Shown: one piece after another, positions 194 to 15,300 of the stretch
How positions within the stretch are numbered: the stretch's first letter is position 1
Layout: each line of letters starts with the position of its first letter
Virus record (IMG/VR): IMGVR_UViG_3300048433_000044
Span: 1-20,464 of that record
Length of the DNA stretch: 20,464 nt
Direction: 5' to 3' (one strand)
Origin: a virus
Position numbers and translations under genes: made by a program
Notes under the pieces: model-generated
The model's database searches: none
Told to the model about the DNA's origin: nothing
What the model saw: only the letters and a program-made list of their open reading frames with translations

Positions 194-221
194 TTGACAT
201 TTTTTATAAACACTATATAAG
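194..221 (+). promoter_or_regulatory. Sigma70-like promoter ahead of the replication arm
   Basis: A perfect TTGACA -35 element (194-199) is followed 16 bases later by TATAAG (216-221) as a -10 element; TATATA at 214-219 is an alternative with shorter spacing. It lies in the longest intergenic gap of the window and faces the DUF932-like gene at 279. Because the downstream genes overlap or nearly touch, this one promoter could drive much of the plus-strand arm. No phage RNA polymerase gene is visible, which fits use of host sigma70. Transcription from it is inferred. Confidence 0.6.
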
Positions 222-240
222 TAATTATCACTTAACCAAA

Positions 241-255
241 GTCCCAACTTGGGAC
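241..255. repeat. Palindrome copy 1, GTCCCAACTTGGGAC (operator candidate)
   Basis: A perfect inverted repeat with 7-bp arms around a central C, 19 bases downstream of the -10 element and 9 bases upstream of the Shine-Dalgarno. It therefore lies in the expected 5' leader. It could be a dimeric repressor site, or an RNA hairpin (GUCCCA stem, three-base loop) close to the ribosome binding site. The same palindrome recurs at 2291-2305 and 9982-9996. Confidence 0.7.
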
Positions 256-264
256 ATAATTTTT

Positions 265-272
265 GAAAGGAG
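265..272 (+). promoter_or_regulatory. Strong Shine-Dalgarno GAAAGGAG for the first gene
   Basis: GAAAGGAG lies 6 bases before the ATG at 279 and fixes that start. The surrounding TTTTGAAAGGAG recurs ahead of the genes at 6548 and 11754, suggesting a shared high-efficiency initiation context in this phage. Confidence 0.7.
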
Positions 273-278
273 ACTACC

Positions 279-1133
279 ATGCCATTAGACGCACAAATTA
301 TAGAGCTATTTAACTTAGACGGAACAGATTTAGATTTCAAAGTTAAATATGAGGATACTAAATTCACAGGTAAAAGATATGTGAAGAACTCTGTTACAGG
401 AGAATATTTAGGTATCGTGGGAGATAAGTTTAAAACAATAGACCACAAAGATTACTTTAATGGTATCAAAGAGGTTATACAAGAGAATAGATTACCCCAT
501 GAACTTGATAATGCGAAAGTAAGTATATCAACTGCACGTAACTGTGCTTTTGCTTTGTTGGATATTACATTACCAAATGTTAAGCACACAATCACAACTG
601 CTAAACATCAAACAACAATCAACGAAAGAATCATCGCCTTGCATGGTATTGATGGGTCTTGTTCTAACCAAGTATACTTTGGTGCTATTGATAGCTACTG
701 TTCTAACGGACAGATAGGTGGAGAGTATGACACTATCAAGAGAAAGAATACAAGTGGTCTCAGACGTTCTGTGTTGTTGAATGAGGTACGTGAAGCTAAA
801 AATAACTTTGATAAACGTGCTAACCTTATGCAAGAGTGGGCAAACATACCTCTCAAGATAGATGGTAAGGTATTTATGTCTAGCATTATACCATCAGAGA
901 ACTTAGCTAAGAAGATGTACGAGTTAGCTTGTCAAGAGATTAGCAAGAGAGGTAAGAATGTATTCGCCTTATACTCTGCATTCACTAACTACGCATCTTA
1001 CGCAGATGAGAGAAATGGTTTCAACATACGTAACACAGGTTTTGATACTAAAGCAGAAACTATGTGGAGAAGAGAACAAGAGGTAGCTAAGTGGGTTTCA
1101 TCACCTCAGTTCAAAGAATTATTGGTGGCATAA
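279..1133 (+). CDS. DUF932-like phage/plasmid protein
   Basis: A soluble 284-residue protein. Residues 30-60 contain a GKRYVKNSVTGEYLG stretch followed by GDKFKTIDHKDYF, and residues 140-160 contain a CSNGQIGGEYDTIKRKNTSG stretch. Both resemble the conserved blocks of the DUF932 (phage/plasmid-like TIGR03299) family, found on phages and conjugative elements and of unknown biochemical function. The start is fixed by a strong Shine-Dalgarno 6 bases upstream. It is the first gene after the promoter and palindrome, and its stop overlaps the integrase start (TAATG), so the two are probably co-translated. Family assignment is by remembered motif shape only. Function is unknown; early expression is inferred from position. 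Confidence 0.6.
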   Translation: MPLDAQIIELFNLDGTDLDFKVKYEDTKFTGKRYVKNSVTGEYLGIVGDKFKTIDHKDYFNGIKEVIQENRLPHELDNAKVSISTARNCAFALLDITLPNVKHTITTAKHQTTINERIIALHGIDGSCSNQVYFGAIDSYCSNGQIGGEYDTIKRKNTSGLRRSVLLNEVREAKNNFDKRANLMQEWANIPLKIDGKVFMSSIIPSENLAKKMYELACQEISKRGKNVFALYSAFTNYASYADERNGFNIRNTGFDTKAETMWRREQEVAKWVSSPQFKELLVA

Positions 1134-2074
1134 TGAAAGTTGATGACTTACTTAATGAGTACTATTTATCCTTTGAATACAATAACTTACGTCAAGAAAC
1201 TAAAGTACAGTATAAGTATTTTTTGGGTATAGTTTCCTCTACAAGTGTGGTTGATGGCAAAAAGTTAGGCAGTTATAAACTGTCTAGCTTGACCACCAAA
1301 CTTGCAAAATTATCTTACAACAAATGGTGTGAGAGAGGTGTATCATTTGCTAATCATCTCATGTCTGTTGTCAGAGTCTTGCTTAATTACGGAATCAACA
1401 TGGAGCATTGTAACATGAACCCATTTAGCAACATCAAAAAAAGAATGACCAAGAGCCGAAAAGTTGTTTGGACAAAGGATGACGTTATCAGGTTTCTTGA
1501 TACCTGTTACTCTGACTTTAACACAAGAAGTATTGGTCTTATTGCACAGATGGCATATGAATGGTGTCAAAGAATTGGCGATATGAGGTTGCTTGAGTGG
1601 TCTAACCTTGATTTAGATGCTAAACGTATGCAGATTGAACAGTCAAAGCGAAGAGCACAAGTATTTTTACCTATATCAGATGAGTTACACGAGATGTTAG
1701 TACAACAACATGATGATTATGGGTTTCAAAAGTATGTAGTACCTCGCCCAAGAGCCTACAAGGGGTCTTACAAGCCTTATTCACTAACTAAGCTACCCAT
1801 ACTAGCTAGAAAGATAATGGACTCTGCAGGGCTTTCTAAGGAGCTTAGGTTAAGTGACTTACGTAGAACAGGTACAGTTGAGATGGTAGATGCAGGGGTA
1901 TCCATGGGTAATATTATGTCAGTTACAGGACATGCTAACCCACAATCTGTTAAACCATACATGAAAAATACATTCACGAGTGCTAACTTAGCATTGCAAG
2001 CAAGAAAAAATTTGACAGATGAAAAAAGCTATGGTACAAGCATGTTAAGTGCCGACAAGGAAGGATGTATATAA
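1133..2074 (+). CDS. int: Tyrosine recombinase / phage integrase
   Basis: A 313-residue site-specific recombinase that would join phage attP to a host attB site. The N-terminal ~100 residues form a core-binding-like helical domain. The C-terminal catalytic domain shows Arg147 in WCQRIGDMRLLEW, Lys172 in the beta-hairpin (EQSKRRAQVFLPI), SDLRR at 241-245 with Arg244, His267 in VTGH, and the nucleophile Tyr276 in VKPYMK. The usual His of the HxxR box is Ser241, a variation I recall in other marine phage integrases. Start chosen at the ATG overlapping the previous stop (TAATG); an in-frame upstream start at 1091 would overlap that gene by 43 bases and add an unconserved-looking leader. The gene makes a temperate life style possible. 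No attP or tRNA fragment is apparent beside it. Confidence 0.9.
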   Translation: MKVDDLLNEYYLSFEYNNLRQETKVQYKYFLGIVSSTSVVDGKKLGSYKLSSLTTKLAKLSYNKWCERGVSFANHLMSVVRVLLNYGINMEHCNMNPFSNIKKRMTKSRKVVWTKDDVIRFLDTCYSDFNTRSIGLIAQMAYEWCQRIGDMRLLEWSNLDLDAKRMQIEQSKRRAQVFLPISDELHEMLVQQHDDYGFQKYVVPRPRAYKGSYKPYSLTKLPILARKIMDSAGLSKELRLSDLRRTGTVEMVDAGVSMGNIMSVTGHANPQSVKPYMKNTFTSANLALQARKNLTDEKSYGTSMLSADKEGCI

Positions 2075-2078
2075 TAAC

Positions 2079-2861
2079 ATGTTAAGTGTATATCAATATG
2101 TAAAAGACTTAGACATAAGTAATGGAGAAACAAAGAGACTAACTTGTCCTATGTGTAAATCGTACAAAACTTTTACAGTAACAAGTAACATGGGCACTAT
2201 TGTATGGAACTGTTACAAGGCATCGTGTAGTGTAAAGGGCAACTCTCGTGTTCACATGACTGTTGATGAGATACGTAACTTCAACAAGGTGTCCCAAGTT
2301 GGGACATCATTTGAATTGCCTGAGTGTGTTGTGTCTCATTCTTACAGAAAGGAAGTTATGAACTTCTGTGAACTGTGGGATTTAGATGTTGACAAACTTG
2401 ATTTACTGTATGATGTTAAAGAGAGTAGAGTGGTTTTTCCAATAAAAGAAAACAATAAAATTGTTGATGCTACAGGTAGGTCTGTCTACAATAAGTTACC
2501 AAAATGGAAACGCTATGGTGACTCGGACTTGCCATATTCATTTGGTTGTGGTAGTATCGCAGTTGTTGTAGAGGATTGTGTGAGTGCAGGAGTCGTGGGA
2601 AGTGATGTATTAGTTGGGGTAGCTGTGTTAGGTACGTCATTATCGGATTCACATAAACTGTTTCTTTCACAATTCTCTACTGCAATAATAGCACTTGACC
2701 CTGACGCATTACCCAAGTCTTTTGCATTTGCTAAAGAGTTACGTTCACATGTCAAGAATATTAAGATACTTAAATTGAAAGATGATTTAAAATACAGAGA
2801 CGAAGAAGACATAACTAATTTAAAACTACTAACCCCAAAGGAGACACAGATATGGAATTAG
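2079..2861 (+). CDS. Stand-alone DNA primase, zinc-binding plus TOPRIM
   Basis: A 260-residue primase resembling the N-terminal half of T7 gp4; it would synthesise RNA primers for lagging-strand replication. A zinc-binding module uses Cys23, Cys26, Cys45 and Cys50 (CPMC ... WNCYKASC). The TOPRIM fold follows, with the catalytic Glu165 in VVVEDCVSAG and the Asp207-Pro-Asp209 pair in ALDPDAL. The helicase is encoded separately by the next gene, overlapping by 10 bases, so the T7 fusion is split here. The ATG at 2079 is preferred, 4 bases after the integrase stop; a GTG at 2049 would add ten residues inside the integrase gene. An AGGAAGGA upstream is rather distant. The gene contains palindrome copy 2. 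Confidence 0.88.
   Translation: MLSVYQYVKDLDISNGETKRLTCPMCKSYKTFTVTSNMGTIVWNCYKASCSVKGNSRVHMTVDEIRNFNKVSQVGTSFELPECVVSHSYRKEVMNFCELWDLDVDKLDLLYDVKESRVVFPIKENNKIVDATGRSVYNKLPKWKRYGDSDLPYSFGCGSIAVVVEDCVSAGVVGSDVLVGVAVLGTSLSDSHKLFLSQFSTAIIALDPDALPKSFAFAKELRSHVKNIKILKLKDDLKYRDEEDITNLKLLTPKETQIWN
2290..2306. repeat. Palindrome copy 2, TGTCCCAAGTTGGGACA, inside primase
   Basis: A perfect 17-bp palindrome whose 15-bp core is the same as the leader copy except for the central base (G instead of C). It lies in the primase frame across codons for VSQVGT (71-76), in the linker between the zinc module and TOPRIM domain. That is a different reading frame from the copy in nrdJ, so protein conservation does not explain the match. 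Confidence 0.75.
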
Positions 2862-4075
2862 CATTAATAAGAAGTTTGATGGACAAATCATTTTATGATT
2901 CCCATCGTGGAGCAAAGTGTCCTGATAGATTATTCAGCAAGGATGCAAGAAAGGTGAAGCAGTCTGTTGACAAAGCCATGAGTAGGTATGAAAGAACTGT
3001 TACACCTGATGAGATAGAAGCATTGTTTATGTCAAGCAATCCTACACTCACTACGGCACAGAAACAGGCTTACTCACATTTGTTTAGACAGATAAAGAAT
3101 GAGCAACCTATGGGAGAGGATGTAGCACAAGAGGTGCTATCCAAACTGTTTCAGCAAGTTGTAGGCGAAGAGATTGCCAACATTGGATTTGATTATGTCA
3201 ATGGTTCTCACTCAAGCCTAGAACCTATACGTAACATACTTGAAGTATACGGAGATGATTTTACACCTAACCTTAACGTGGAGTGGGATGACATGGAAAT
3301 AGATACATTATTAGCGAAGAATGATTTGGAAGCACGTTGGTCGTTTAACTTACCAACTTTAACAAGACAAGTTGAAGGCATTAATGCAGGACACTTAATT
3401 GAAGTAGGAGCAAGACCTAACACAGGTAAGACTTCTTTTCATGCAAGTTTGTTGGCAGGACCTGATGGCTTGGCACGACAAGGTGCGAGTTGCATTATCC
3501 TTTGTAACGAAGAAGGTAGTCACAGAGTTGGTGCTAGATATCTGACTGCATCAACAGGTATGACTATGAGAGAAGTGAAGCAGAACCCAAGTAAAGCACG
3601 AGACTTGTATGCACCTGTCAAGAATAACATCAAGATAAAAGATGCAACGGGTCGTGATATGTCGTGGGTGGAGAGTGTATGTAAAACATATAGTCCTGAC
3701 ATTGTTGTGCTTGACATGGGAGACAAGTTTGCACGTACAGGTGGCTTTGCAAGGACAGATGAAGCACTCAAAGCTAATGCCATACATGCTCGTATGATTG
3801 CAAAGGAACACAAGTGTGCAGTCTTTTATATGTCTCAACTATCTGCAGATGCAGAGGGTAAGGTGTTACTCAACCAAAGCATGATGGAAGGTAGTCGTAC
3901 AGGTAAGGCAGCCGAAGCGGACTTGATGATATTGATTGCCAAGAATCCACCAAGACAAGATGAGACAGAAGAAGATTTACAAAGGCATTTAAATGTGGTA
4001 AAGAATAAACTTACAGGATGGCACGGTGTTGTCCATTGTAATTTAAATTATAGAGTAGGAAGATATGAAGCATGA
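2852..4075 (+). CDS. DnaB/T7 gp4-type replicative helicase
   Basis: A 407-residue RecA-fold helicase that would unwind DNA ahead of the phage polymerase as a hexamer with the neighbouring primase. Residues 1-140 form a helical N-terminal region. The ATPase core has Walker A at 186-194 (GARPNTGKT), a CNEEG acidic motif at 218-222, Walker B at 284-291 (IVVLDMGD), a sensor-like YMSQLS at 326-331, and a C-terminal NLNYRVGRYE at 397-406 typical of the arginine-bearing end of DnaB-like helicases. It overlaps the primase by 10 bases and the endonuclease VII gene by 4 (ATGA), indicating translational coupling. Length is typical for a helicase without a fused primase. Confidence 0.9.
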   Translation: MELALIRSLMDKSFYDSHRGAKCPDRLFSKDARKVKQSVDKAMSRYERTVTPDEIEALFMSSNPTLTTAQKQAYSHLFRQIKNEQPMGEDVAQEVLSKLFQQVVGEEIANIGFDYVNGSHSSLEPIRNILEVYGDDFTPNLNVEWDDMEIDTLLAKNDLEARWSFNLPTLTRQVEGINAGHLIEVGARPNTGKTSFHASLLAGPDGLARQGASCIILCNEEGSHRVGARYLTASTGMTMREVKQNPSKARDLYAPVKNNIKIKDATGRDMSWVESVCKTYSPDIVVLDMGDKFARTGGFARTDEALKANAIHARMIAKEHKCAVFYMSQLSADAEGKVLLNQSMMEGSRTGKAAEADLMILIAKNPPRQDETEEDLQRHLNVVKNKLTGWHGVVHCNLNYRVGRYEA

Positions 4076-4515
4076 CACAATTTAATTTATTCAAAGAACT
4101 ACCACAAAAAGAAAACCCTATAATTGATGGTGTTGTCTGTATTAAGTGTGAAATAAGGCAACCTATAACACATTTCTCTGTTATGAAAGCAGGTGAAATA
4201 AAAAGAACTTGCAGGTCTTGTAGAAAGGGTCATAAGGAAGTCTTGAATAAACTAAGAAAAGAAAATGCTTATCCCGATAAAGATTATTCATGTGCTATAT
4301 GTGACAGAACATTAGATGAATTAGGTAAGCATGGTCAGACTAGATTACAAAATTGGGTGTTAGACCATTGCCATGATACAAATACTTTTAGAGGTTGGGT
4401 GTGTCATAAATGCAACACAGGATTAGGTGGCTTCTCTGATGACTTGACTATTATTGAAAGAGCAGTTATATACTTAAAGAAACATAAGGAAAGATTAAAT
4501 GAAACTAACACTTGA
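4072..4515 (+). CDS. Recombination endonuclease VII (HNH/His-Me finger)
   Basis: A 147-residue nuclease of the T4 gp49-like endonuclease VII family, which cleaves branched DNA such as Holliday junctions. Cys23-x2-Cys26 and Cys47-x2-Cys50 suggest an added N-terminal zinc finger. The endonuclease VII core has CAIC at 74-77, the catalytic DHCHDT at 98-103, and WVCHKCNTGLG at 109-119, which supplies the second zinc pair and the HNH-type Asn115. It overlaps the helicase by 4 bases and the polymerase by 17. Since a T7-type endonuclease I is encoded at 8270, this phage would have two junction-cleaving enzymes. Confidence 0.9.
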   Translation: MTQFNLFKELPQKENPIIDGVVCIKCEIRQPITHFSVMKAGEIKRTCRSCRKGHKEVLNKLRKENAYPDKDYSCAICDRTLDELGKHGQTRLQNWVLDHCHDTNTFRGWVCHKCNTGLGGFSDDLTIIERAVIYLKKHKERLNETNT

Positions 4516-6511
4516 TGTAGAAAATACAACAACAAAACGAGATGGTAAGTTACATCTTGACCCATTTGAACCAAACAATAAACTAGTCATGGTGGGTTGT
4601 CTTACGGATAAAGGAGAGGAGCATTTGTTCAGAGACAACTTTGATGGAGTACAAGAGTTGCTTGACCAAGCTACTATACTCATAGGTCACAATATAGCAT
4701 ATGATCTTATGTGGATATGGGAGTGTGGCTTCAAGTATGATGGTCCTGTCTTTGATACAATGCTTGGTGAATATATATTGCAACGAGGTATCAAAGAACC
4801 TCTACACCTAAAAGACTGTGCGTTAAGATATGAATTAGATACACAGAAAGAAGATACACTTAAAGATTATTTTGCAAAAGGTTATAATACAGATGAGATA
4901 CCTGCAGAAGAGTTATCGTTTTATCTGTCAGCAGATTTACATGCAACTCAACAGTTAGCTGATGCCATATATAAAAAGTTAAATACTGAAGAATACAGTA
5001 GTCTAATGAACTCAGTTATACTAACTAACAAGGTTTGTGTTACTCTTGCTAAGATATACAAGAATGGCTTTAAGGTAGATAAAAAAGCATTAGATGAAGT
5101 TAGAGTTGAATTTGAAAAAGAGAAAAATGAAGTAGCAAACAGACTTAAAAAACAAGTTCAACATTTAATGGGAGACACTCCTATTAATTTAAATAGTCCT
5201 GAGCAGATGTCTTGGGTTATCTATAGTAGAAAACCTAAAGATAAAACTATGTGGGCTAACAACTTCCATCCCTACATGGACATATCAGAGTACAAAGAAA
5301 AGGTTAGTGAGTATTCTGATATTGTATACAAGACTAAAGCAGTAAAATGTGGGGAGTGTCGTGGGGATGGCTACATAAGAAAGGTAAAGAAAGATGGAAG
5401 TTTATACTCTAAGCCAAACAGGTGTAATACTTGTAATACTTTTGGCTACTTATTCAATCCTACGAAATCTATAGCAGGTTTAAAGTTCTCAGCACCAAAT
5501 GCTAAATGGGTTAGTGCTAATGGATTTACAATTAACAAAACATATCTAGAGATATTAGCTAATGTAGCAAAGAAGAATAACATGCAAGATGCAGTAAACT
5601 TTCTAACTGACTTGCAAAGGTTGTCTGCTCTAGATACATACTTGTCTTCATTTGTTGAAGGCATAAGTTCATATGTAAAAGATGATGGTATGTTGCATGT
5701 TAGATTGTTACAACACAGAACTGCAACAGGTAGGTTTAGTGGTGCTGACCCCAACATGCAGAACATGCCTAGAGGTGGTACTTTCCCCGTCAAGAAAGTG
5801 TTTGTATCACGTTGGGAAGGTGGCAAGATACTTGAAGCTGACTTTGCACAGCTAGAGTTTAGAACGGCTGCCTACTTATCACAAGATAAAATAGCAATGA
5901 AGGAGATTAAAGATGGTTTTGATGTACATGCATACACTGCTTCTGTCATTACGGAATCAGGTCAGAAGACTTCTAGGCAAGAAGCCAAAGCCCATACCTT
6001 TGCACCTCTCTATGGAGCAACAGGATTTGGGAGAACGTCTGCTGAAGCAAAATATTATGAACAGTTCACACAAAAGTACAAAGGGGTTGCATCATGGCAT
6101 TCCCGATTGGCTAAAGAAGCTTTAAATACAGGTATGATAACAACACCGTCAGGCAGACAGTTTTCTTTTCCTGATGTACAAAGAAGAAGAAACGGAACAG
6201 TGTCTCACTTTACACAGATAAAGAACTATCCTGTGCAGTCATTTGCTACTGCTGACATTGTTCCAATTATTCTTGTACACATTCAAAAAGAGCTTGACAG
6301 GTATAAGTCATGTGTGGTAAATACAGTACATGATTCTATAGTAATAGATATCCATCCTAGTGAGGAAGAGAATGTTTTGAATATTATACGTGACACAAAT
6401 AAGTCATTGAATAATATAATTAATTTAGAGTTTGGTATAGACTTTGATGTGCCTCTTTTACTTGAGGCAAAGATTGGTACTAATTGGCTTGACACCAAAG
6501 ATGTATCGTGA
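4499..6511 (+). CDS. Family A DNA polymerase with a DnaJ-like zinc insert
   Basis: A 670-residue replicative polymerase. The 3'-5' proofreading domain has Asp6 and Glu8 (DVE), GHNIAYD at 63-69 and Tyr142/Asp146. The polymerase domain has TATGRFSG at 408-415, motif A with Asp448 (ILEADFAQLEFR), motif B at 493-507 (Arg493, Lys497, Phe501, Tyr505), and motif C VHDS at 610-613. The residue matching E. coli Phe762 is Phe501. Between the two halves, residues 284-317 hold two DnaJ-like zinc knuckles (CGECRGDG and CNTCNTFG). I recall a partial DnaJ central domain as a hallmark of the HMO-2011 phage polymerase. The gene overlaps endonuclease VII by 17 bases. Confidence 0.95.
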   Translation: MKLTLDVENTTTKRDGKLHLDPFEPNNKLVMVGCLTDKGEEHLFRDNFDGVQELLDQATILIGHNIAYDLMWIWECGFKYDGPVFDTMLGEYILQRGIKEPLHLKDCALRYELDTQKEDTLKDYFAKGYNTDEIPAEELSFYLSADLHATQQLADAIYKKLNTEEYSSLMNSVILTNKVCVTLAKIYKNGFKVDKKALDEVRVEFEKEKNEVANRLKKQVQHLMGDTPINLNSPEQMSWVIYSRKPKDKTMWANNFHPYMDISEYKEKVSEYSDIVYKTKAVKCGECRGDGYIRKVKKDGSLYSKPNRCNTCNTFGYLFNPTKSIAGLKFSAPNAKWVSANGFTINKTYLEILANVAKKNNMQDAVNFLTDLQRLSALDTYLSSFVEGISSYVKDDGMLHVRLLQHRTATGRFSGADPNMQNMPRGGTFPVKKVFVSRWEGGKILEADFAQLEFRTAAYLSQDKIAMKEIKDGFDVHAYTASVITESGQKTSRQEAKAHTFAPLYGATGFGRTSAEAKYYEQFTQKYKGVASWHSRLAKEALNTGMITTPSGRQFSFPDVQRRRNGTVSHFTQIKNYPVQSFATADIVPIILVHIQKELDRYKSCVVNTVHDSIVIDIHPSEEENVLNIIRDTNKSLNNIINLEFGIDFDVPLLLEAKIGTNWLDTKDVS

Positions 6512-6547
6512 TATAACTATGGTTCTTTTGAAAGGAGAAAATTATAA

Positions 6548-7477
6548 ATGACAGATTTAGTTACAATTAATACAGACAATTATGCTACTATGGCTAAGGC
6601 AATGGGCTTGCCTACTAGTACTGTTGAGAAGAAGGCTAACACCTTAAACAGATTTAGAATATGGCACAACCCTACAATGGGCATAGGTGAAGCTAATGGA
6701 AAGTCTGTTAAGATGGAAGTTGTTGAAGGAGGTATGTACAGATTAGAAGTACCAGGAGACCCTAGTACATTTTACTTTTCTGAAAAGGTAAAGTTTAGAC
6801 CCTTCTTACAAAGGTTTATGTATAAGAAGTTTACGCAGAATCGCAATGTAAAAGAAGGAGATAAGCAAGGTGGTTATGTTAAAACAATAATGGCTGATAC
6901 ACTAAACATTGACCTTAAAGATGATGACGGCACTTTTAACTGTGGTAAACCAACAGGATATGTTAAAGACTTTCAATCCCTTCCCGAAGCTACAAAAAAA
7001 CTTATAAAGGAGATTAAAAGAACTAGAGTTGTGTTTGGTCTTATAAAGATGGTAGACCCTGTAAAAGGGATTGATGGCAGAGAGATTGCAGACTTGCCTG
7101 AATATCCTGTAATATGGGAGATAGAAAATAGAGATGCTTACAAAGCCATTGGAGATGTCTTTTCTAGGTTTGCCAAATCGCAGAGCTTACCTCTTCAACA
7201 TGTTATAAAGCTAGAGGGCACTAAGGAAAATAAACTCAATAATGGTGGTAGCTTTTATACGCCAATAGTACAGCTAGACACAACAAGTAAAATTGAGATA
7301 TCTGATAGTGACCATAAAGCATTTGGAGACTTCTTGGATTGGGTAAAGAACTACAATGATGGTATTATAAGTAAGTGGGATACCAAGGTTTCAGAAAGAC
7401 AAGATGAAGTGTCAGAGGAAGATATGGAAACTGTAGAAAACTTTATTGATGTAGAGATAGATACTGATGCTAAGTAA
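6548..7477 (+). CDS. Probable single-stranded DNA-binding protein
   Basis: A 309-residue soluble protein directly after the polymerase. It has no motif I recognise with certainty. The last ~27 residues (283-309) are strongly acidic (DEVSEEDMETVENF, then VEIDTDA), the kind of tail phage SSBs use to recruit replication proteins. The middle is rich in Lys, Phe and Tyr, for example KVKFRPFLQRFMYKKF at 81-96, suitable for stacking on single-stranded DNA. The position between polymerase and a RecB-like nuclease matches the SSB slot of T7-like replication clusters (gp2.5 next to gp3 and gp5). The start is set by TTTTGAAAGGAG 10 bases upstream. The role is inferred from context and the acidic tail. 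Confidence 0.5.
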   Translation: MTDLVTINTDNYATMAKAMGLPTSTVEKKANTLNRFRIWHNPTMGIGEANGKSVKMEVVEGGMYRLEVPGDPSTFYFSEKVKFRPFLQRFMYKKFTQNRNVKEGDKQGGYVKTIMADTLNIDLKDDDGTFNCGKPTGYVKDFQSLPEATKKLIKEIKRTRVVFGLIKMVDPVKGIDGREIADLPEYPVIWEIENRDAYKAIGDVFSRFAKSQSLPLQHVIKLEGTKENKLNNGGSFYTPIVQLDTTSKIEISDSDHKAFGDFLDWVKNYNDGIISKWDTKVSERQDEVSEEDMETVENFIDVEIDTDAK

Positions 7478-8216
7478 TAATGCTTTCAAAGCACATGGTA
7501 TTAACTACCTTTCACCAAGTAGTATAAATACATATATCAGTGACCCACCTATGTGGGTCGCTAGATATCTATTCAAAGTGAAATCATCAAGTGGTCCAGG
7601 TGCAGTTAGAGGCATTGCAACGGAGCACGTATTAGCTAACAAATATAATGAAGGCACATTTGATTATAAAATGCTTGACTTAAAATTCATTAGCTTATGC
7701 ACAGAATCTATGGTTGATTTAGGAGATAAGAAGGCAGAGAAAGAAAGGAGTACTTTAGAAAAGTTTGGAGAAGTTATAGATAAAAATTTTAACTATAAAG
7801 ACTTAGAAGACTATCAAGAAAGAGTTGAAGTACAGTTAGATGATTTGCCTGTACCTATCATGGGCTACATAGATTTTAGATTTAAAGATAAAATTGTAGA
7901 TTTAAAAACATCTACAAGGATGCCAACACAGCCAACTGAAGCACAAAAAAGACAGATGGCTTTGTACTCTATGGCATACCCTAAGAGTAGTGTGGACTTA
8001 TTTTTTGCTACACCAAAAGAGCATAAAGTGTTCACACTTAAAAATTTGGCTTCTTATAAAAAGCAACTTGAAAAGGTTGCTTATAGCATACAGAAGTTTT
8101 TGTCTATCAGCGATGATAAACATGAGTTAGCTTCTTTTATGTATCCTAACCTTGACTCTTGGATGTGGAATGGTAAGATGAAAGAAGAAGCAAAAAAAAT
8201 ATGGAGTGTAAAATAA
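7467..8216 (+). CDS. RecB/Cas4-like PD-(D/E)XK nuclease
   Basis: A 249-residue nuclease of the RecB-like branch of the PD-(D/E)XK superfamily. Visible motifs are GIATEHVL at 49-56 (the His/Glu box), GYIDFRF with Asp136, IVDLKTST with Asp145 and Lys147, and QMALY at 163-167, the QxxxY box of RecB/Cas4 proteins. In phages this family often supplies the exonuclease that degrades host DNA and prepares ends for recombination, a job done by gp6 in T7. No Cas4-type cysteine cluster is seen (only Cys78), so an iron-sulfur centre is unlikely. It overlaps the preceding gene by 11 bases. The ATG at 7467 is the only plausible start before Met29. Confidence 0.8.
   Translation: MLSNNAFKAHGINYLSPSSINTYISDPPMWVARYLFKVKSSSGPGAVRGIATEHVLANKYNEGTFDYKMLDLKFISLCTESMVDLGDKKAEKERSTLEKFGEVIDKNFNYKDLEDYQERVEVQLDDLPVPIMGYIDFRFKDKIVDLKTSTRMPTQPTEAQKRQMALYSMAYPKSSVDLFFATPKEHKVFTLKNLASYKKQLEKVAYSIQKFLSISDDKHELASFMYPNLDSWMWNGKMKEEAKKIWSVK
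8203..8206 (+). promoter_or_regulatory. GGAG ribosome binding site serving the ATG at 8216
   Basis: GGAG lies 9 bases before the ATG at 8216, which overlaps the previous stop (TAATG). By contrast, the TTG start of endonuclease I at 8270 has no recognisable Shine-Dalgarno, so ribosomes probably enter this region at 8216. Confidence 0.5.
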
Positions 8217-8269
8217 TGTCTGATACATATTCGTATAGTAATCCCTTTATATCTTGGCGAAACTTTTAG
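8216..8269 (+). other. 17-codon ORF ending in amber, in frame with endonuclease I
   Basis: ATG at 8216 (TAATG overlap, GGAG 9 bases upstream) encodes MSDTYSYSNPFISWRNF and ends in TAG at 8267-8269. The next codon, in the same frame, is the TTG that begins the endonuclease I gene. It could be a short leader peptide giving termination-reinitiation, a true N-terminus cut off by a point mutation to amber, or an amber read through at low level. The aromatic-rich peptide looks like genuine coding sequence, but this is inference. Confidence 0.45.
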
Positions 8270-8722
8270 TTGTCTCCTCATAAATTAAGAAGAGATGCTA
8301 TAAAGCATGGGTATAGGAGTGGCTTAGAACATAAGTTATCCATCTATCTTAAAGAACATAAGTTTAAATTCTCTTATGAGTCTATTAAAATAGAGTGGGA
8401 AGATTTATTGTATCGCACTTATACCCCTGACTTCATACTAGACAATGGTATAATTGTAGAAACGAAAGGTAGATTTCTAGTATCTGATAGGCGAAAACAT
8501 TTAGCTATTCAGAAACAGCACCCTAAACTAGACATTAGATTTGTGTTTACAAATAGCAGGGTTAAGTTATACAAAGGCAGTAAAACAACGTATGCCCAAT
8601 GGTGCATAAAACATAAGTTTAGATACTATGACAGAATCATACCCGAAGATTGGCTTAAAGAAAAGGGCAAAAACAAACACCCTGTTTTTATAAAGTTTGT
8701 TGGTAAAAAAATAAGGAGATAA
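8270..8722 (+). CDS. T7-type endonuclease I (Holliday junction resolvase)
   Basis: A 150-residue resolvase of the T7 gp3 family, which cuts four-way junctions and helps break down host DNA. It aligns well with remembered T7 gp3: GYRSGLEHKL at 14-23 (Glu20), YTPDFIL at 51-57 (Asp54), the catalytic VETKGRF at 63-69 (Glu64, Lys66), DRRKHLAIQKQHPKLDIRFVF at 73-93 in T7-like order, NSRVKLYKGS at 95-104, and a lysine-rich C-terminus. From the TTG at 8270 the distance to the RSGLE motif equals that of T7 gp3 and the total length is nearly the same, supporting this start. However, the TTG has no clear Shine-Dalgarno and directly follows an in-frame TAG ending a 17-codon ORF. Confidence 0.88.
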   Translation: MSPHKLRRDAIKHGYRSGLEHKLSIYLKEHKFKFSYESIKIEWEDLLYRTYTPDFILDNGIIVETKGRFLVSDRRKHLAIQKQHPKLDIRFVFTNSRVKLYKGSKTTYAQWCIKHKFRYYDRIIPEDWLKEKGKNKHPVFIKFVGKKIRR

Positions 8723-8725
8723 AAA

Positions 8726-9043
8726 ATGAAAACATATGACAACAAAGGCAATCATTTCTTCATAGAAGTTATACCATCAATAGATGATAAAGGTTATTGG
8801 GATGGTAGATTTGAATTAGCTATACAGGTTAGAAAATCTAATATAGAGGAAGAAAGCTATTGGGAGTTAGAGAAGCTATGCCAAATGGCTTGTGCAAGTC
8901 TTTCCCTAATGCAACAAGATGCTAGGGTAAGAGACACTATTGAAACATTTTTAAATACCCCCGAAAATGATGATATTAAATTACCTTCACCTGTTGACAA
9001 GGTTACAGGTAATGTGATAAAAGTTAACTTTGAGAAAGGTTAA
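8726..9043 (+). CDS. Small acidic phage protein of unknown function
   Basis: A 105-residue soluble protein. A beta-rich first half (FFIEVIPSIDDKGYWDGRFE at 11-30) leads into a helix (YWELEKLCQMACASLSLMQQ) and a flexible C-terminus ending VIKVNFEKG. I do not recognise the family. It starts 3 bases after endonuclease I with a good GGAG 7 bases before the ATG, and is followed 3 bases later by a DUF3310-like gene. Position among nucleic-acid genes suggests an early accessory role; nothing in the sequence shows which. Confidence 0.75.
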   Translation: MKTYDNKGNHFFIEVIPSIDDKGYWDGRFELAIQVRKSNIEEESYWELEKLCQMACASLSLMQQDARVRDTIETFLNTPENDDIKLPSPVDKVTGNVIKVNFEKG

Positions 9044-9046
9044 TAC

Positions 9047-9316
9047 ATGTTAAGGCATATGGAGTATATGAAAATGAAAGAAGAAGAACTAAAAGAAAAA
9101 GAAGATATGGTCAATCATCCAAAGCACTATAACAAAGCAGGTATTGAAACTATTGATGCTTTACAAGCTATGTTAACAGACGGTTTTGATTATTATTTGC
9201 AAGGTAACATAGTTAAATACCTATGGAGATTTAGATACAAGAATGGTGTAGAAGACCTCAAGAAAGCACAGTGGTATCTAAATAAACTTATAGAGGTTTG
9301 CGATGGTAAAAGTTAA
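9047..9316 (+). CDS. DUF3310-like small protein
   Basis: An 89-residue protein dominated by the DUF3310 signature: VNHPKHYNKAGIETIDAL at 22-39, then YYLQGNIVKYLWRFRYKNG at 49-67 and VEDLKKAQWYLNKLIE at 68-83. The family is common in tailed phages near nucleotide-metabolism genes; its biochemical role is not established to my knowledge. The N-terminal 20 residues are very Lys/Glu-rich, and internal Met codons at 9059, 9068 and 9107 are alternative starts. The 9047 ATG is kept because a purine-rich AGAAAGG precedes it at suitable spacing. The end overlaps the next small gene by 14 bases. Confidence 0.8.
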   Translation: MLRHMEYMKMKEEELKEKEDMVNHPKHYNKAGIETIDALQAMLTDGFDYYLQGNIVKYLWRFRYKNGVEDLKKAQWYLNKLIEVCDGKS

Positions 9317-9479
9317 TATGATGTTATCCTTAAAGATTGACCCTGACGAATACCCTATGCCATCAGACGGGAGATTAGATACAGAACTAGAGGATTACAT
9401 TACAGACTTAATCCATGAGATAGAGGGAGTAAAAATAAATAATATAAGAATTACAATGGAGAACAAAAATTATGATTAG
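9303..9479 (+). CDS. 58-residue acidic phage protein
   Basis: A complete short ORF bridging the DUF3310-like gene (14-base overlap) and nrdJ (8-base overlap). It begins MVKVNMMLSLKIDPDEYPMP and continues DGRLDTELEDYITDLIHEIE, then GVKINNIRITMENKNYD before TAG at 9477-9479. A strand, an acidic helix and a second strand are predicted by eye. Without it there would be a 155-base gap in a region with almost no gaps, and its ends mesh with both neighbours, so it is very likely real. The start may be the ATG at 9303, 9318 or 9321. No function recognised. Confidence 0.7.
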   Translation: MVKVNMMLSLKIDPDEYPMPSDGRLDTELEDYITDLIHEIEGVKINNIRITMENKNYD

Positions 9480-11385
9480 CAACTATTTACCAACAGATTA
9501 TCAGAACTTCATAGCACTTTCTCGCTATGCAAGATGGAAAGACGATGAGCAAAGAAGAGAAAATTGGGGTGAGACTGTAGACAGATACTTTGATTACATG
9601 ACTAATCACCTTAAAAAAAATCATTCCTATGATTTAACAAAAGCTCTTAAAGAAAAACTTACTCAACATATAATGAACTTAGGTGTTATGCCTAGTATGA
9701 GAGCATTAATGACATCTGGACCTGCATTAGACAGATGCCACGTAGGAGGCTACAACTGTAGTTATATACCTGTGGATAGTCCACGTAGCTTTGATGAATG
9801 CATGTATATTCTTATGTGTGGTACAGGTGTAGGTTTTTCTGTTGAACGTGAGAATGTTGACAAGCTACCCATTGTCAATGAGCACTTTGAGGACAGCACT
9901 ACTATCATCAAAGTTGCAGACAGCAGACCTGGTTGGGCACGAGCATTACGAGAATTAATATCTTTGTTATATGTTGGGCAAGTCCCAACTTGGGACACAT
10001 CAGAAGTTAGACCTGCAGGTGCTAGACTAAAAACTTTTGGTGGTAGAGCATCAGGACCTGCACCACTAGAAGAGCTATTCCGTTTTTGCATAGCTAAGTT
10101 TGAAGGTGCTAAAGGTAGAAGACTATTTCCTATTGAATGTCACGACATTATGTGTAAGATAGGTGAGGTTGTAGTTGTAGGTGGAGTACGTAGGTCTGCT
10201 CTTATATCTCTATCCAACTTAGGTGATGACCAAATGAGACACGCTAAGTCAGGTCAATGGTGGGAGAATGAAGGGCAGAGGGCACTAGCCAATAACTCTG
10301 TAGCATTTAAAGGTAAGCCTGAGATGGGTACATTCATGCGAGAGTGGACATCATTATATGAATCTAAGTCAGGTGAACGTGGTATCTTCAACAGACAAGC
10401 TGCCAAAGTTAAGGCATCTGAGAATGGTAGACGTGAGATTGACCATGAGTTTGGTTGTAATCCCTGCAGTGAAATTATATTACGACCATATCAGTTCTGT
10501 AACCTAACTGAGGTAGTATGTAGAGCCACCGATGATTTAAACACTTTAACAGAGAAGGTACGTATGGCTACTATACTTGGTACATTTCAGTCTACTCTAA
10601 CTAGCTTCAAGTATTTACGTAAGATATGGAAAGATAATACAGAAGAAGAGAGGTTATTAGGGGTTTCCCTAACAGGTATACTAGATACAAACGTATGGGG
10701 AAAAGAAGTTCTTACAATATTAAGAGAAGTTGCAGTAGAAACTAATAAGAAGGTAGCTAAAGAGTTAGGTATACCACAGTCAACTGCTATCACTTGTGTA
10801 AAGCCAAGTGGTACAGTCAGTCAGTTAGTTGACAGTGCTTCAGGTATTCATGCTAGACACAACGACTACTACATCAGAACTGTACGTGGTGATAACAAAG
10901 ACCCACTCACACAGTTTATGAAAGAGAGTGGTATACCAAATGAGCCTTGTGTTATGAAACCTGATAGCACTACTGTGTTCAGTTTCCCAATGAAGTCACC
11001 TCAAGGTGCTGTTACTAGAACACAGATGTCTGCTATTGAACAGCTAGAGTATTGGCTAATGTTCCAAAGACATTGGTGTGAGCACAAGCCTTCTGTTACT
11101 GTATCTGTTAAGGAAGATGAGTGGATGGATGTAGGAGCATGGGTGTATAAGAACTTTGATGAAGTATCAGGTATATCCTTCTTACCATTCAGTGACCACA
11201 CATATGCTCAAGCACCTTACCAAGACATAACTAAAGAAGAGTACACTGAGTTGTTTAGTAAGATGCCTATGTCTATTGATTGGTCTAAATTAGCAGACTT
11301 TGAAAAAGAAGACACTACTAGCGGTGGCAGGGAATTAGCTTGCACAGCAGATGCCTGTGAAGTAGTTGACTTGACATCTAATTAA
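9472..11385 (+). CDS. nrdJ: Class II adenosylcobalamin-dependent ribonucleotide reductase
   Basis: A 637-residue reductase that converts ribonucleotides to deoxyribonucleotides using B12-derived radical chemistry, supplying DNA precursors independent of oxygen. Signature elements: PSMRALMTSGPA at 74-85; NCSYIPV at 95-101 with the first redox Cys96; VRPAGARLKTFGGRASGP at 179-196; the active-site NPCSEI at 330-335 with Cys332 and Glu334; Cys343 in QFCNLTEVV; KPSGTVSQL at 444-452; and a C-terminal redox pair Cys624/Cys629 (CTADAC). No small subunit or activase gene follows, as expected for class II. Length fits the shorter monomeric form. It requires host or environmental cobalamin. The gene contains palindrome copy 3. 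Confidence 0.95.
   Translation: MISNYLPTDYQNFIALSRYARWKDDEQRRENWGETVDRYFDYMTNHLKKNHSYDLTKALKEKLTQHIMNLGVMPSMRALMTSGPALDRCHVGGYNCSYIPVDSPRSFDECMYILMCGTGVGFSVERENVDKLPIVNEHFEDSTTIIKVADSRPGWARALRELISLLYVGQVPTWDTSEVRPAGARLKTFGGRASGPAPLEELFRFCIAKFEGAKGRRLFPIECHDIMCKIGEVVVVGGVRRSALISLSNLGDDQMRHAKSGQWWENEGQRALANNSVAFKGKPEMGTFMREWTSLYESKSGERGIFNRQAAKVKASENGRREIDHEFGCNPCSEIILRPYQFCNLTEVVCRATDDLNTLTEKVRMATILGTFQSTLTSFKYLRKIWKDNTEEERLLGVSLTGILDTNVWGKEVLTILREVAVETNKKVAKELGIPQSTAITCVKPSGTVSQLVDSASGIHARHNDYYIRTVRGDNKDPLTQFMKESGIPNEPCVMKPDSTTVFSFPMKSPQGAVTRTQMSAIEQLEYWLMFQRHWCEHKPSVTVSVKEDEWMDVGAWVYKNFDEVSGISFLPFSDHTYAQAPYQDITKEEYTELFSKMPMSIDWSKLADFEKEDTTSGGRELACTADACEVVDLTSN
9982..9996. repeat. Palindrome copy 3, GTCCCAACTTGGGAC, inside nrdJ
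   Basis: Identical to the leader copy at 241-255, including one flanking A on each side. Here it is read exactly in codon register as Val-Pro-Thr-Trp-Asp (171-175), just before the conserved VRPAGA block. A partial further copy precedes it: GTTGGG at 9973-9978 pairs with CCCAAC at 9984-9989, giving alternating half-sites. Confidence 0.75.
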
Positions 11386-12378: not shown

Positions 12379-15300
12379 AACATTTTAAATAGACTCTGAT
12401 AGGCTTTAGATATAGTGTATGCAGTTACATAATCTGAACCACTATTAGGGTCTACAGGTTGTCCCTTTTCCTGTTCAAATATTCTAAGACCCCATTCACG
12501 AATATTTTTAGGAAGCCTTTTAAACTTAACTCTATATTGCTCTAGCAAAAATTTATTTTTCAACCTAGCTCTCTTTTCTTCAGGGATGTCTTTGCCAACC
12601 TCTAATATTTTCATATAAGCTGCTTCTTTAAACATACTTTTTATTGGAGCTAAATTAGAGCTTATTATACCTCTTATTTCGGCTTGTATAAATTGCTTAC
12701 TTTTATCTTGTTCAATTAATTGCTTCTCTCTTGCTTGTGCTAGTTTAGCCAAAGGTGGAATCAATTCATTCATCAAGTCATTCTCTATTCTTCTTATGCT
12801 AGGAGTAGAAGCTCTTGATGACATTTCAAATTCGGTGAATCCATATTTTTGCATAAACAAACCTGAAGGGGGATTGTCTTCATAATATGTAGCACCTGCA
12901 CCTATCTTTAAAGCAGGGTTAATTCTACGTTTACCATCTTGGTCTAATACATATGTTCTATTTGGAAGTTTCCTTTCCTCTTCAGGACTTATGAATCCTC
13001 TACGAATAAAAGGCATCTTTGCTGATTGCACAAAAGTTGATTCAAAATCACCATAAATAGGGTCTACATTAGGGTCTTTTATTTGAGATGCTCTGCTTTC
13101 TACAAGACCATAGTCTATTAGTTTACCATCTTTACCTATTCTTATTTCAGGTAATTTAGACATACTTCTTTCTAAATCTATAATCTGAGCAGCAGGAACA
13201 GCATATCTTTGCACAAAGTTTCCAAACGCTGTGCCTGTGGTCTTAGCTATTCTGTCTGACCAAGAAGCATCCGCACCACCTAATGCATTTACAAAATCCT
13301 CTATCATACTAGTGCCTCTACCTGTACGTAAAGTAGCTCCAAAAAAAGTTTCTGTAAATTCTTTTGCGTCACCTACCAAAGAACCTTTCAATGTACCGTC
13401 TTTCCACCTATCAATAAACTCAGATATGTACAAAGCCTGTCTTAAAGGAAATTGTGGAGTAGTATCAAAAGACTCACCGTCTGATGTTCTAATCATTTTA
13501 TAATCAGGGTGAGGTTCATCAAAATATCCTTGCATCCAAGCAGGTCTCTCACTTTCAGGCTTTCTGTAAGCACTAGCAGCTAAATACACTCCGTAACCAA
13601 CTAAGTTTCTTGATATATCTTCTCTGTCTCTATCGGTTAGTTTTTGTAATCTATTAGGTCGTATTAATCTTCTTATAGGCACTAAAGCAGCACCTGCAGA
13701 GTATTGTGCTATTAACTCTAAACTTGTGAATACAAATCTAGGAAAAGCAACTAATGCTGTACCACCATATTTAGCAAGTATTTCATTTACAACTTTAAAA
13801 GGTGCAAAGTTAGGAACATTAGAGTATGTAGCATTTCTAGCTTTTTCTGTTGCCTCTGCAACTATTTCAGAAAATTCTTTAGACCCTTCAGGTAATACAG
13901 TAGGTGAATCATTTAATATTTCTCTCATACGACCTTTATTTAACTCATCTACTAGCTCTAATCCTTTATAATTTTTTCTAAACAAGTCCTCTAAGTTTTG
14001 AAGAAAGTAAGCACTTCTTGTTATATAGTCTTGCCATTTGTTAGGTATATTTAGTGTATCAACAAAGTCTTCACCTGCTTCTAACAATTCATCTATCTTT
14101 TGCTGAACAGGTGTTAACTGAATACCTTCTGGTCTACGCAATCGTACTAGTTCACTAACATTACTAAATAATACATTATAGTTATTCATAAACTCAGGTC
14201 TTTTTAATATATAATCAACATAATCCCTAGCATCTTTATTATCTATTAAATATGAGTGATGCTTAAAACTATTTCTCCAATTAGTAGGACTCAAAACAGT
14301 TAGAGTTTTTTTCTTCAGACCCTTTTCTGTTAGATTATATAAAGAGGTATTAAATACATTAGACAAACCTTCTAATGGACTTCTCATTAAAGTAGATTCT
14401 ACGTTACGTATCATAGTGGCTAACATAGAAACTAATGCACCTCTACCTATATCAATAAATCGTAGAGCCGCCTTACCTGCAAAATTATACTTCTCTAGAT
14501 TAGCTTGGTCTATAGCTTCTTTTCTAGATTTTTTACCTATTTTCCTACCTTTAATTGGAGCAAATTTTTGAAGAACTTTACCTGCTTGTGATGCAGAACC
14601 TAAAGTCATAAGTATATAATCCTCAAAACTAACATCATATTTATTTAATAATGCTGTTAATTCATCATCAGGAAGTAAATCACCTCTTACTGTGGCATTA
14701 AAAAGGTTGTCAATTGTCATTCTGCTTTCAGGAAAAAGTTCAGGCTTAGTTTTCTTTAATTCAGAAGCAATAGCCACTAGAGGGTCTAGTTTGTCAGGGT
14801 TAATTATAGGTGAAAGAAGGTCTTCCTTTTTTAATCCTATTGTAGATTCTAAATCTGAAGCAGCTATCAAGTCTCCATCTATATCTACAGCACCAACATA
14901 TTCTTTTTCAGCTATGTTTAAACCAACAACTCTAGCCTTATCATAATCTATAGACAGTTTACCTGCTACAGTTTTAGATATTAATTTATCTTCATTAATT
15001 ATTTTCTTAATATTATTAGGGTCTCTAGCTCCTATCTGGACTTCATAGTCCATTATTAGCTCTTCTTTAATAGATTGATTCTCACTCGCTTTATCTGCAG
15101 CATCCTTTGCCTTTTTAGCAATTATCTCAGCTTCAGCACTCTTAGCCCTATTAATATTTAGCCTTCTACTTTCATACTTTTTAATCTTTGCGGCATTCTT
15201 AATTAATTTCTTTTTTCTTTTTATCTCAGCTTCAAATATATCTTTGGCTAGTTCTAGAGCTTTAGGTGACCTAGACAGTATACTCATCATAGCACCCTTT

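Follow-up and report, generated by a model that had tools for sequence, protein, structure and literature searches.

A 15-bp palindrome, GTCCCAA-S-TTGGGAC, is present in three perfect copies in the 20,464-bp virus contig analysed here (IMG/VR record IMGVR_UViG_3300048433_000044, positions 1 to 20,464; this whole stretch is called the window), probably a fragment of an HMO-2011-type marine phage genome. Comparison with related genomes suggests that the palindrome serves as operator in a phage-encoded circuit with dispersed sites, and that its dimeric regulator is encoded by gene 1, the hyperdiverse first rightward early open reading frame (ORF) of about 200 amino acids (aa). We give this reading, which is drawn from sequence, a probability of about 70%. 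Somewhat less firmly, but still probably, the HMO-2011-type phages carry an immunity-like system that is undescribed in the literature searched, in which a new hyperdiverse DNA-binding family (gene 1) would use its N-terminal domain (N-domain) to act on about 4-13 dispersed palindromic operators, several of them in protein-coding linkers, with co-changing specificity, many coexisting alleles and mosaic exchange.

Co-occurrence of palindrome families and gene 1

A survey independent of the palindromes was carried out with p72, the conserved first leftward gene (about 70 aa) beside the control region, as bait. From 567 confirmed p72 stretches 80 were kept, and the co-occurrence table comprises the 44 loci with an early arm of at least 4,900 bp, the 36 shorter loci being left out. 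De novo search revealed lineage-specific families of 3 to 11 palindromes with identical arms in the early arms, and no family above 2 copies in the late arms. A family of at least three identical-arm palindromes is present in 25 of the 27 loci with gene 1 and in 0 of the 17 without it; in five shuffles per locus the largest family had one member (43 loci) or two (1 locus). The preliminary description of the window had proposed a search for a phage DNA-binding protein distributed like the palindrome, and gene 1 is distributed in this manner, its DNA binding being predicted. The two gene-1-positive misses, L383 and L384, were afterwards found to possess five copies each of GTCCG-N4-CGGAC, with 5-base arms. 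An unrelated ORF stands at the gene 1 position in L385, L424 and L437, which were counted as gene-1-negative where long enough; the L437 ORF matches phrog_3842, and the other two align with it. With L385 and L424 recounted as gene-1-positive, the figures are 25/29 against 0/15. Ten new loci of the L443 type were fetched by gene 1 alone, and nine of them hold at least three copies (L453 has two). Three new contigs of the A type, allele A being the window palindrome, contain 10, 8 and 10 copies of it. The search with the L411-type gene 1 matched its own contig only.

The same survey bears on the identity of the binder. The sites could be operators as described and yet be bound by another phage protein, for example p72, which adjoins the control region in the genomes inspected; gene 1, for its part, has no recognised DNA-binding domain. 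This was judged improbable and p72 was set aside, because the bait also occurs in the 17 loci that lack both gene 1 and repeated palindromes, and because it is well conserved across alleles, whereas gene 1 varies with the allele.

Relatives of the window were gathered by a primase search (40 IMG/VR loci) and by a palindrome pattern search (at least 120 stretches). Three of them (L007, L008 and L028) have copies at the same three places as the window. The count in relatives, which the preliminary description had recommended, gave 9 to 13 perfect copies in the six larger contigs (G001 11, G002 13, G003 12, G005 12, G010 9 and G014 10) and 1 to 6 in each of the smaller fragments; G002, G005, G010 and G014 resemble close relatives of one another. 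All 11 copies of G001 (55,310 bp) are located within 17,002-26,080, that is 9.1 kb of early genes, and the remaining 46 kb contains none. Inside gene 1, gene 2 and the primase gene, the in-frame copies encode SQ(V/L)GT and fall in variable stretches.

Some further contigs may be mentioned beside these. In G005 (L171) p72 occurs twice (100% and 80% identity), once in each orientation, and the contig is chimeric or consists of two phages joined. Of other phage contigs, G012 (IMGVR 3300034283_000839, 44.5 kb; L183-L185) contains 10 matches to GTCCCAA-(A/T)-TTGGGAC within 2 mismatches, and G013 (L186:10479-10646) three such matches within 170 bp.

Palindrome alleles and the variation of gene 1

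The window palindrome, with up to 2 mismatches, was found neither in the full genomes of HMO-2011, CRP-345, CRP-1, CRP-603, CRP-207 and HTVC033P nor in 30 kb of CRP-2. A palindrome private to the clade of the window, as the exact search in cultured relatives had implied, was overturned by the de novo palindrome search, which shows differing alleles. HMO-2011 possesses five copies of AGTCCG-N4-CGGACT, all in the early arm and four of them before a Shine-Dalgarno sequence and start codon (SD-ATG); exact GTCCAA-NN-TTGGAC sites number six in CRP-345 and five in CRP-1. Over these three genomes most of the copies are found in the early arms. The absence from relatives, which the preliminary description would have taken as evidence against its proposal, is thus literally true of six cultured genomes, but HMO-2011, CRP-345 and CRP-1 have another repeated palindrome in its stead.

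Twelve alleles have been identified in the 27 gene 1 loci, which together with that of the window gives at least 13 (the alleles of L404, L431, L405, L414, L386 and L390 were assigned or corrected by hand from the sites). The allele cores are 13-15 bp long, start with GT and end with AC, and vary in the inner bases; two leader-slot variants depart from the GT/AC ends. At the slot of the window site at 241 (the DUF932 leader, compared in 46 distinct sequences) the relatives have arms of GTCCCAA, GCCACAA, TTCCCAA, GTATCAA, GTAGCA or GTCCAAA, each perfectly symmetric, and it is at this one slot that symmetric double changes between the arms are seen. In more distant relatives the slot mostly holds no palindrome. 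The primase slot is occupied by other palindromes in L413, L431 and L020 and by none in several lineages.

The gene 1 proteins change in step with these alleles. In the AlphaFold2 model the N-domain is mostly helical and predicted with confidence, and is followed by a disordered linker (residues 131-157) and a C-terminal pair of helices, with a mean predicted local distance difference test score (pLDDT) of 77.5 and a predicted template modelling score (pTM) of 0.57; the A-type model is weaker (74.6) and has a beta hairpin. In the alignable subset of 17 proteins, median N-terminal identity is 70% (31-93) for the 42 same-allele pairs and 33% (22-52) for the 94 different-allele pairs, against 27% and 21%, respectively, at the C-terminus. 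In natural exchanges of the C-terminus across alleles (L417, L390) the allele stays with the N-terminus, which indicates that operator and N-domain belong together. Where helix 86-97 begins, DKRRR accompanies GTCCA in 13/13 members and (A/P)KQRR accompanies GTCCG in 11/13, a total of 24/26; CRP-345 and CRP-1 (IDRRRR with GTCCAA) stand outside this 26-member count, having been missed by the motif pattern. The N-domains of L456 and L457 are closely alike, but the two differ both in the motif and in the operator base. The only strong viral match of the gene 1 model is S4S2E1 (79% identical, 205 aa, a length like that of HMO-2011 gp74), which is presumably HMO-2011 gp74 itself.

A host-encoded or partition site of the ParB/KorB kind, where a host protein would organise or silence the phage DNA, was also considered and appears very improbable. 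KorB operators are S-centred palindromes in about a dozen copies, and a perfect TGTTTCACGTGAAACA, which we take to be the chromosomal parS consensus, is present in 8 of the 11 distinct A-allele contigs that span the control region. On the other side, the palindrome differs from lineage to lineage and varies along with a phage gene, a scan of ten proteins revealed no ParB-like domain, and L466 has 10 sites and no parS. A scan of genome contigs returned 12 loci, all metagenome-assembled genomes of inconsistent taxa, and therefore no host has been assigned. Among the readings listed by the preliminary description, the evidence favours the dispersed operator of a dimeric repressor; host-encoded, partition and packaging sites receive little support.

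The occurrence of parS is a separate observation, and a host centromere-like site carried by a phage is unexpected. TGTTTCACGTGAAACA is located in the control region at L163:17090-17105, L167:8202, L169:8865, L171:5196, L173:6382, L180:919, L462:7739 and L463:7756, and also in the early arms of L433 and L435. It is absent from L191, L179 and L466, was not found in HMO-2011 or CRP-345, and is present in at least 120 viral stretches.

Placement of the sites

Of 190 sites in 29 sequences, near-duplicates included, 107 have an SD-ATG at most 45 nt downstream, compared with 24.8 expected, and the remaining 83/190 are not start-associated by this rule. An SD-ATG follows five of the 11 copies in G001 and six of the 11 copies within the first 10 kb of G002, for example as palindrome-AAAGGAG-ATTAGA-ATG. 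Other copies in these two contigs immediately precede the TTGACA box of the gene 1 promoter, flank a second early promoter or fall within coding sequence. Around gene 1 (36 loci) one or two sites usually lie upstream (32/36), and a site in the gene 1 linker, mostly at nt 398-458, or at most 24 nt past the stop codon is found in 34/36. A terminator-like element follows gene 1 in 17/36 loci, compared with 20/680 random early positions. As a side observation, early promoters of G001 and G002 have a half-operator, GTCCCATTTGACA, overlapping their -35 box (L022:1609-1621 and similar).

Such placement is also compatible with control at the RNA level, where hairpins in front of ribosome-binding sites would set translation or mRNA processing through a phage protein (possibly that of gene 1) or a nuclease that binds them. 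The 107 start-associated sites fit this, as do the orientation bias of the centre bases and the folding of the four isolated palindromes tested into hairpins of 5-6 bp, which the leader and primase copies of the window keep in context. Nevertheless it is unlikely. The site directly upstream of the -35 box of the gene 1 promoter in G001 and G002 is not transcribed from that promoter; the arms within a genome are identical in sequence, beyond mere pairing; the symmetry spans one- and two-base centres, unpairable in RNA loops; the centre orientations of L416 are balanced (3:3); and the nrdJ copy of the window folds differently in context.

The three copies in the window

The coordinates given by the preliminary description proved correct: the copies lie at 241-255 (GTCCCAACTTGGGAC), in the leader of the DUF932 gene, downstream of a sigma-70-like promoter and before the SD/ATG, at 2291-2305 inside the primase, and at 9982-9996 (GTCCCAACTTGGGAC) inside nrdJ. 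The primase copy indeed extends to 17 bp (2290-2306, TGTCCCAAGTTGGGACA), the outer two do not, and up to 3 mismatches add no further site. Shuffled windows contain 0.23 matches on average and 0 of 100 reach three. Copy 1 lies about 13-27 bp downstream of the expected start of a probable promoter, TTGACA-N16-TATAAG (194-221, plus strand); the promoter and these positions were assigned by eye, and the consensus promoter scan of the window gave four matches, this one not among them.

The two coding copies do use different frames, SQVGT in primase and VPTWD in nrdJ, and the description had deduced from this a conservation at the DNA or RNA level. That deduction stands for the leader and primase copies, since in other lineages other palindromes occupy these two slots, and is weak for nrdJ. 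The primase copy lies in a hypervariable loop, where the centre base changes V to L and the arms stay fixed. The comparison of arms with synonymous sites, which had been put forward as a check, gave moderate conservation in primase (13/256 windows as conserved) and weak conservation in nrdJ (53/632).

The leader and primase copies fit a dispersed-operator system well, and the nrdJ copy, the weakest member, is less certain. A VP(T/N/K/Q)WD-like peptide recurs at the palindrome position in nrdJ relatives, and so the copy is partly explained by protein sequence. That it is due to chance and protein constraint altogether, the codons for VPTWD happening to spell the palindrome, is a serious possibility, which we consider a little less probable than its opposite. 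In keeping with it, three of 14 distinct nrdJ genes at A-labelled loci lack the palindrome, 53/632 windows are as conserved at synonymous sites, the peptide recurs among nrdJ relatives in the looser form (V/I)PxWD, four distant nrdJ loci (two similar pairs, found by searching for the palindrome) spell it with an A centre, and G001 has no nrdJ copy despite 11 elsewhere. One of the 13 copies of G002 is in nrdJ. The other 11 of the 14 have the palindrome; all 11 distinct A-labelled sequences at 83% identity or more have it, whereas L029, L035 and L037, at 89.8-92.0% identity and with no A site, do not (L035 has a B leader site), which speaks against chance.

Proposed circuit

In the proposed circuit the gene 1 product would bind, as a dimer, two-fold symmetric sites of one and the same sequence, which stand at the gene 1 promoter, within gene 1 or shortly behind it, and next to early promoters, with further sites in front of, and sometimes inside, early genes. 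Gene 1 would thereby be autoregulated. At promoters the bound regulator would block initiation, and at intergenic and intragenic sites it would act as a roadblock to the elongating polymerase. The outcome would be shut-down of the early arm, for maintenance of lysogeny or superinfection immunity, or as an early shut-off, which agrees with the evidence no less than a lysogeny role. The operator alleles differ between lineages, and the N-domain of gene 1 changes along with them. The sites, their positions, the alleles, the co-occurrence and the co-variation are read directly from sequence; DNA binding, dimer formation, repression and a role in lysogeny are what we infer for gene 1.

Several points weigh against this reading. 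Gene 1 lies outside the window, and its proteins gave no significant match in Pfam or PHROG (scans of 17 and of 7 members). In the fold searches no solved fold was convincing, the best VIA Z scores being 4.4 and 3.7, and with neither a library nor a convincing fold match the DNA binding of gene 1 is an assumption. L451 and L423 break the rule relating motif residues to the operator base, and L020 and L066 are mosaic, with different alleles in the leader and primase slots of one contig. No terminator was seen after gene 1 in 19 of the 36 loci. CRP-603, CRP-207, CRP-2 and HTVC033P have no repeated family with 6-base arms. The pair counts and Fisher tests ignore relatedness. The centre bases are skewed to one orientation in several genomes, and the sites hug translation starts and can fold as RNA hairpins. 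Finally, an integrase is present with or without gene 1, so that temperate phages cannot simply be recognised by gene 1.

The search of gene 1 against PDB sequences also gave no significant match. For the A-type protein, two eukaryotic Pfam families and one PHROG matched below the cutoff and were disregarded; a HapR/SmcR fold (Z 4.4, root-mean-square deviation 4.0, 91 aligned residues) was not a trustworthy match, and many rows for a MarR fold near Z 2.2 were below the threshold set by the tool for a meaningful match.

HMO-2011-type phages are among the commonest marine phages. If the proposal is true, it offers a testable control circuit and a candidate regulator for a major group of uncultured ocean phages, and in metagenomes the operator allele would let likely superinfection-immunity groups be read from sequence. 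With more than 12 operator alleles matched to regulator sequences, a natural series of specificities would be at hand for a protein that has no recognised fold. The proposal also raises the question of repressed prophages among phages with annotated integrases, in which lysogeny is mostly unproven. Integrases are general in the group, gene-1-negative phages included, and CRP-3 integrates into a tRNA (PMC6918029). Term searches of two papers on HMO-2011-type phages found no mention of promoter, palindrome, repressor or operator (PMC9038755) or of repressor, palindrome, inverted repeat or promoter (PMC6918029). Four papers mention both HMO-2011 and a repressor. Literature matches to the palindrome arms as literal text, among those listed, appear unrelated by title.

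Comparison with known dispersed-site systems

Dispersed multi-copy operators with one regulator each are known for P1 C1 and RK2 KorB; the P1 C1 sites are asymmetric, and KorB is a ParB-family protein. In phage phiC31, which infects different hosts and is not known to have an allele series, about 18 palindromic sites for the repressor are scattered between early genes. The present system differs from the closest arrangements compared, the L5 stoperators and the cluster K start-associated sequences (SAS), by its symmetric sites, unrecognised regulator and broad allele series.

The stoperators of L5 and cluster A are alike in the large number of almost identical sites at promoters and in narrow intergenic gaps, and in the joint divergence of site motifs and repressors between relatives (PMC6550527, PMC9283540), and those of L5 also in the predominant orientation relative to transcription (PMC6550527). 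The dispersed arrangement in early-arm promoters and short gaps is found in the relatives, and the window itself has three sites. However, the L5 sites are 13-bp asymmetric sequences bound by a monomer with two DNA-binding domains, whereas those described here are two-fold symmetric, 13-15 bp long and perfect or near-perfect palindromes. In the Pfam, PHROG, PDB-sequence and fold searches gene 1 showed no recognisable relationship to a known repressor family such as that of the L5 repressor gp71, weak fold matches aside. Repression at L5 sites is experimental, in contrast to the present deduction from sequence.

The SAS and extended SAS (ESAS) of cluster K are similar in number (11-19 copies per genome), in restriction to the non-structural half and in their closeness to start codons, and the inverted-repeat consensus of ESAS differs between subclusters (PMC3203893). 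The SAS is, however, a 13-bp asymmetric element, GGGATAGGAGCCC, and the ESAS has imperfect 17-bp arms with spacers of mostly 4-13 bp (PMC3203893), in contrast to one compact palindrome of another sequence per site here. SAS lie 3-7 bp from starts, and the present spacing, with the 45-nt rule given above, is looser. Unlike SAS and ESAS, the present sites also occur upstream of promoters, and a co-varying gene has been found.

Kinship and gene content of the window

PMC9038755 defines HMO-2011-type phages by a homologue of the HMO-2011 DNA polymerase with a partial DnaJ insert and two CXXCXGXG motifs. The window polymerase is 64.6% identical over 100% to that of Puniceispirillum phage HMO-2011; its first motif, CGECRGDG, matches the pattern, and the second, CNTCNTFG, departs from the strict pattern at one position. 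The gene order is that of the type, namely integrase, primase, helicase, polymerase, endonuclease, ribonucleotide reductase and MazG, followed by opposite-strand genes (helicase, endonuclease and MazG were named by position against the HMO-2011 annotation), and also parallels, with insertions, that of the Roseobacter phages CRP-345 and CRP-1.

The genes discussed above are all on the plus strand. The DUF932-domain gene, with copy 1 in its leader, is located at 279-1133 (Pfam PF06067, E 2.5e-6), and the tyrosine integrase at 1133-2074, from an in-frame ATG within ORF 1091-2074 (Pfam PF00589, E 4.4e-17, on the ORF). The DNA primase, which holds copy 2, occupies 2079-2861 (ORF from 2049, 2079 being an in-frame ATG) and was named from relatives and the HMO-2011 gp10 annotation; nrdJ, a ribonucleotide reductase gene that holds copy 3, occupies 9472-11,385 and was named from relatives and the gp18 annotation.

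Other features were seen in the related genomes. Four TGTGATCACA palindromes are present in the control region of CRP-603 (L240:5104-5222) and two in CRP-345 (L238:5394, 5469). The control regions of G001, G002, HMO-2011 (L237) and CRP-345 (L238) share, by eye, conserved intergenic blocks like GTGGTTAACACT..TTT.CCT.ATCTGTGTATTT and CAACTGTTATGGTATCAGTTGCC, possibly an origin, an att site or a late promoter. In the late arm of G002 a small ORF (reverse complement, 13840-14106) contains GGHVELQSF and CSGCAMS motifs and by eye resembles a NifU/NfuA-type Fe-S protein.

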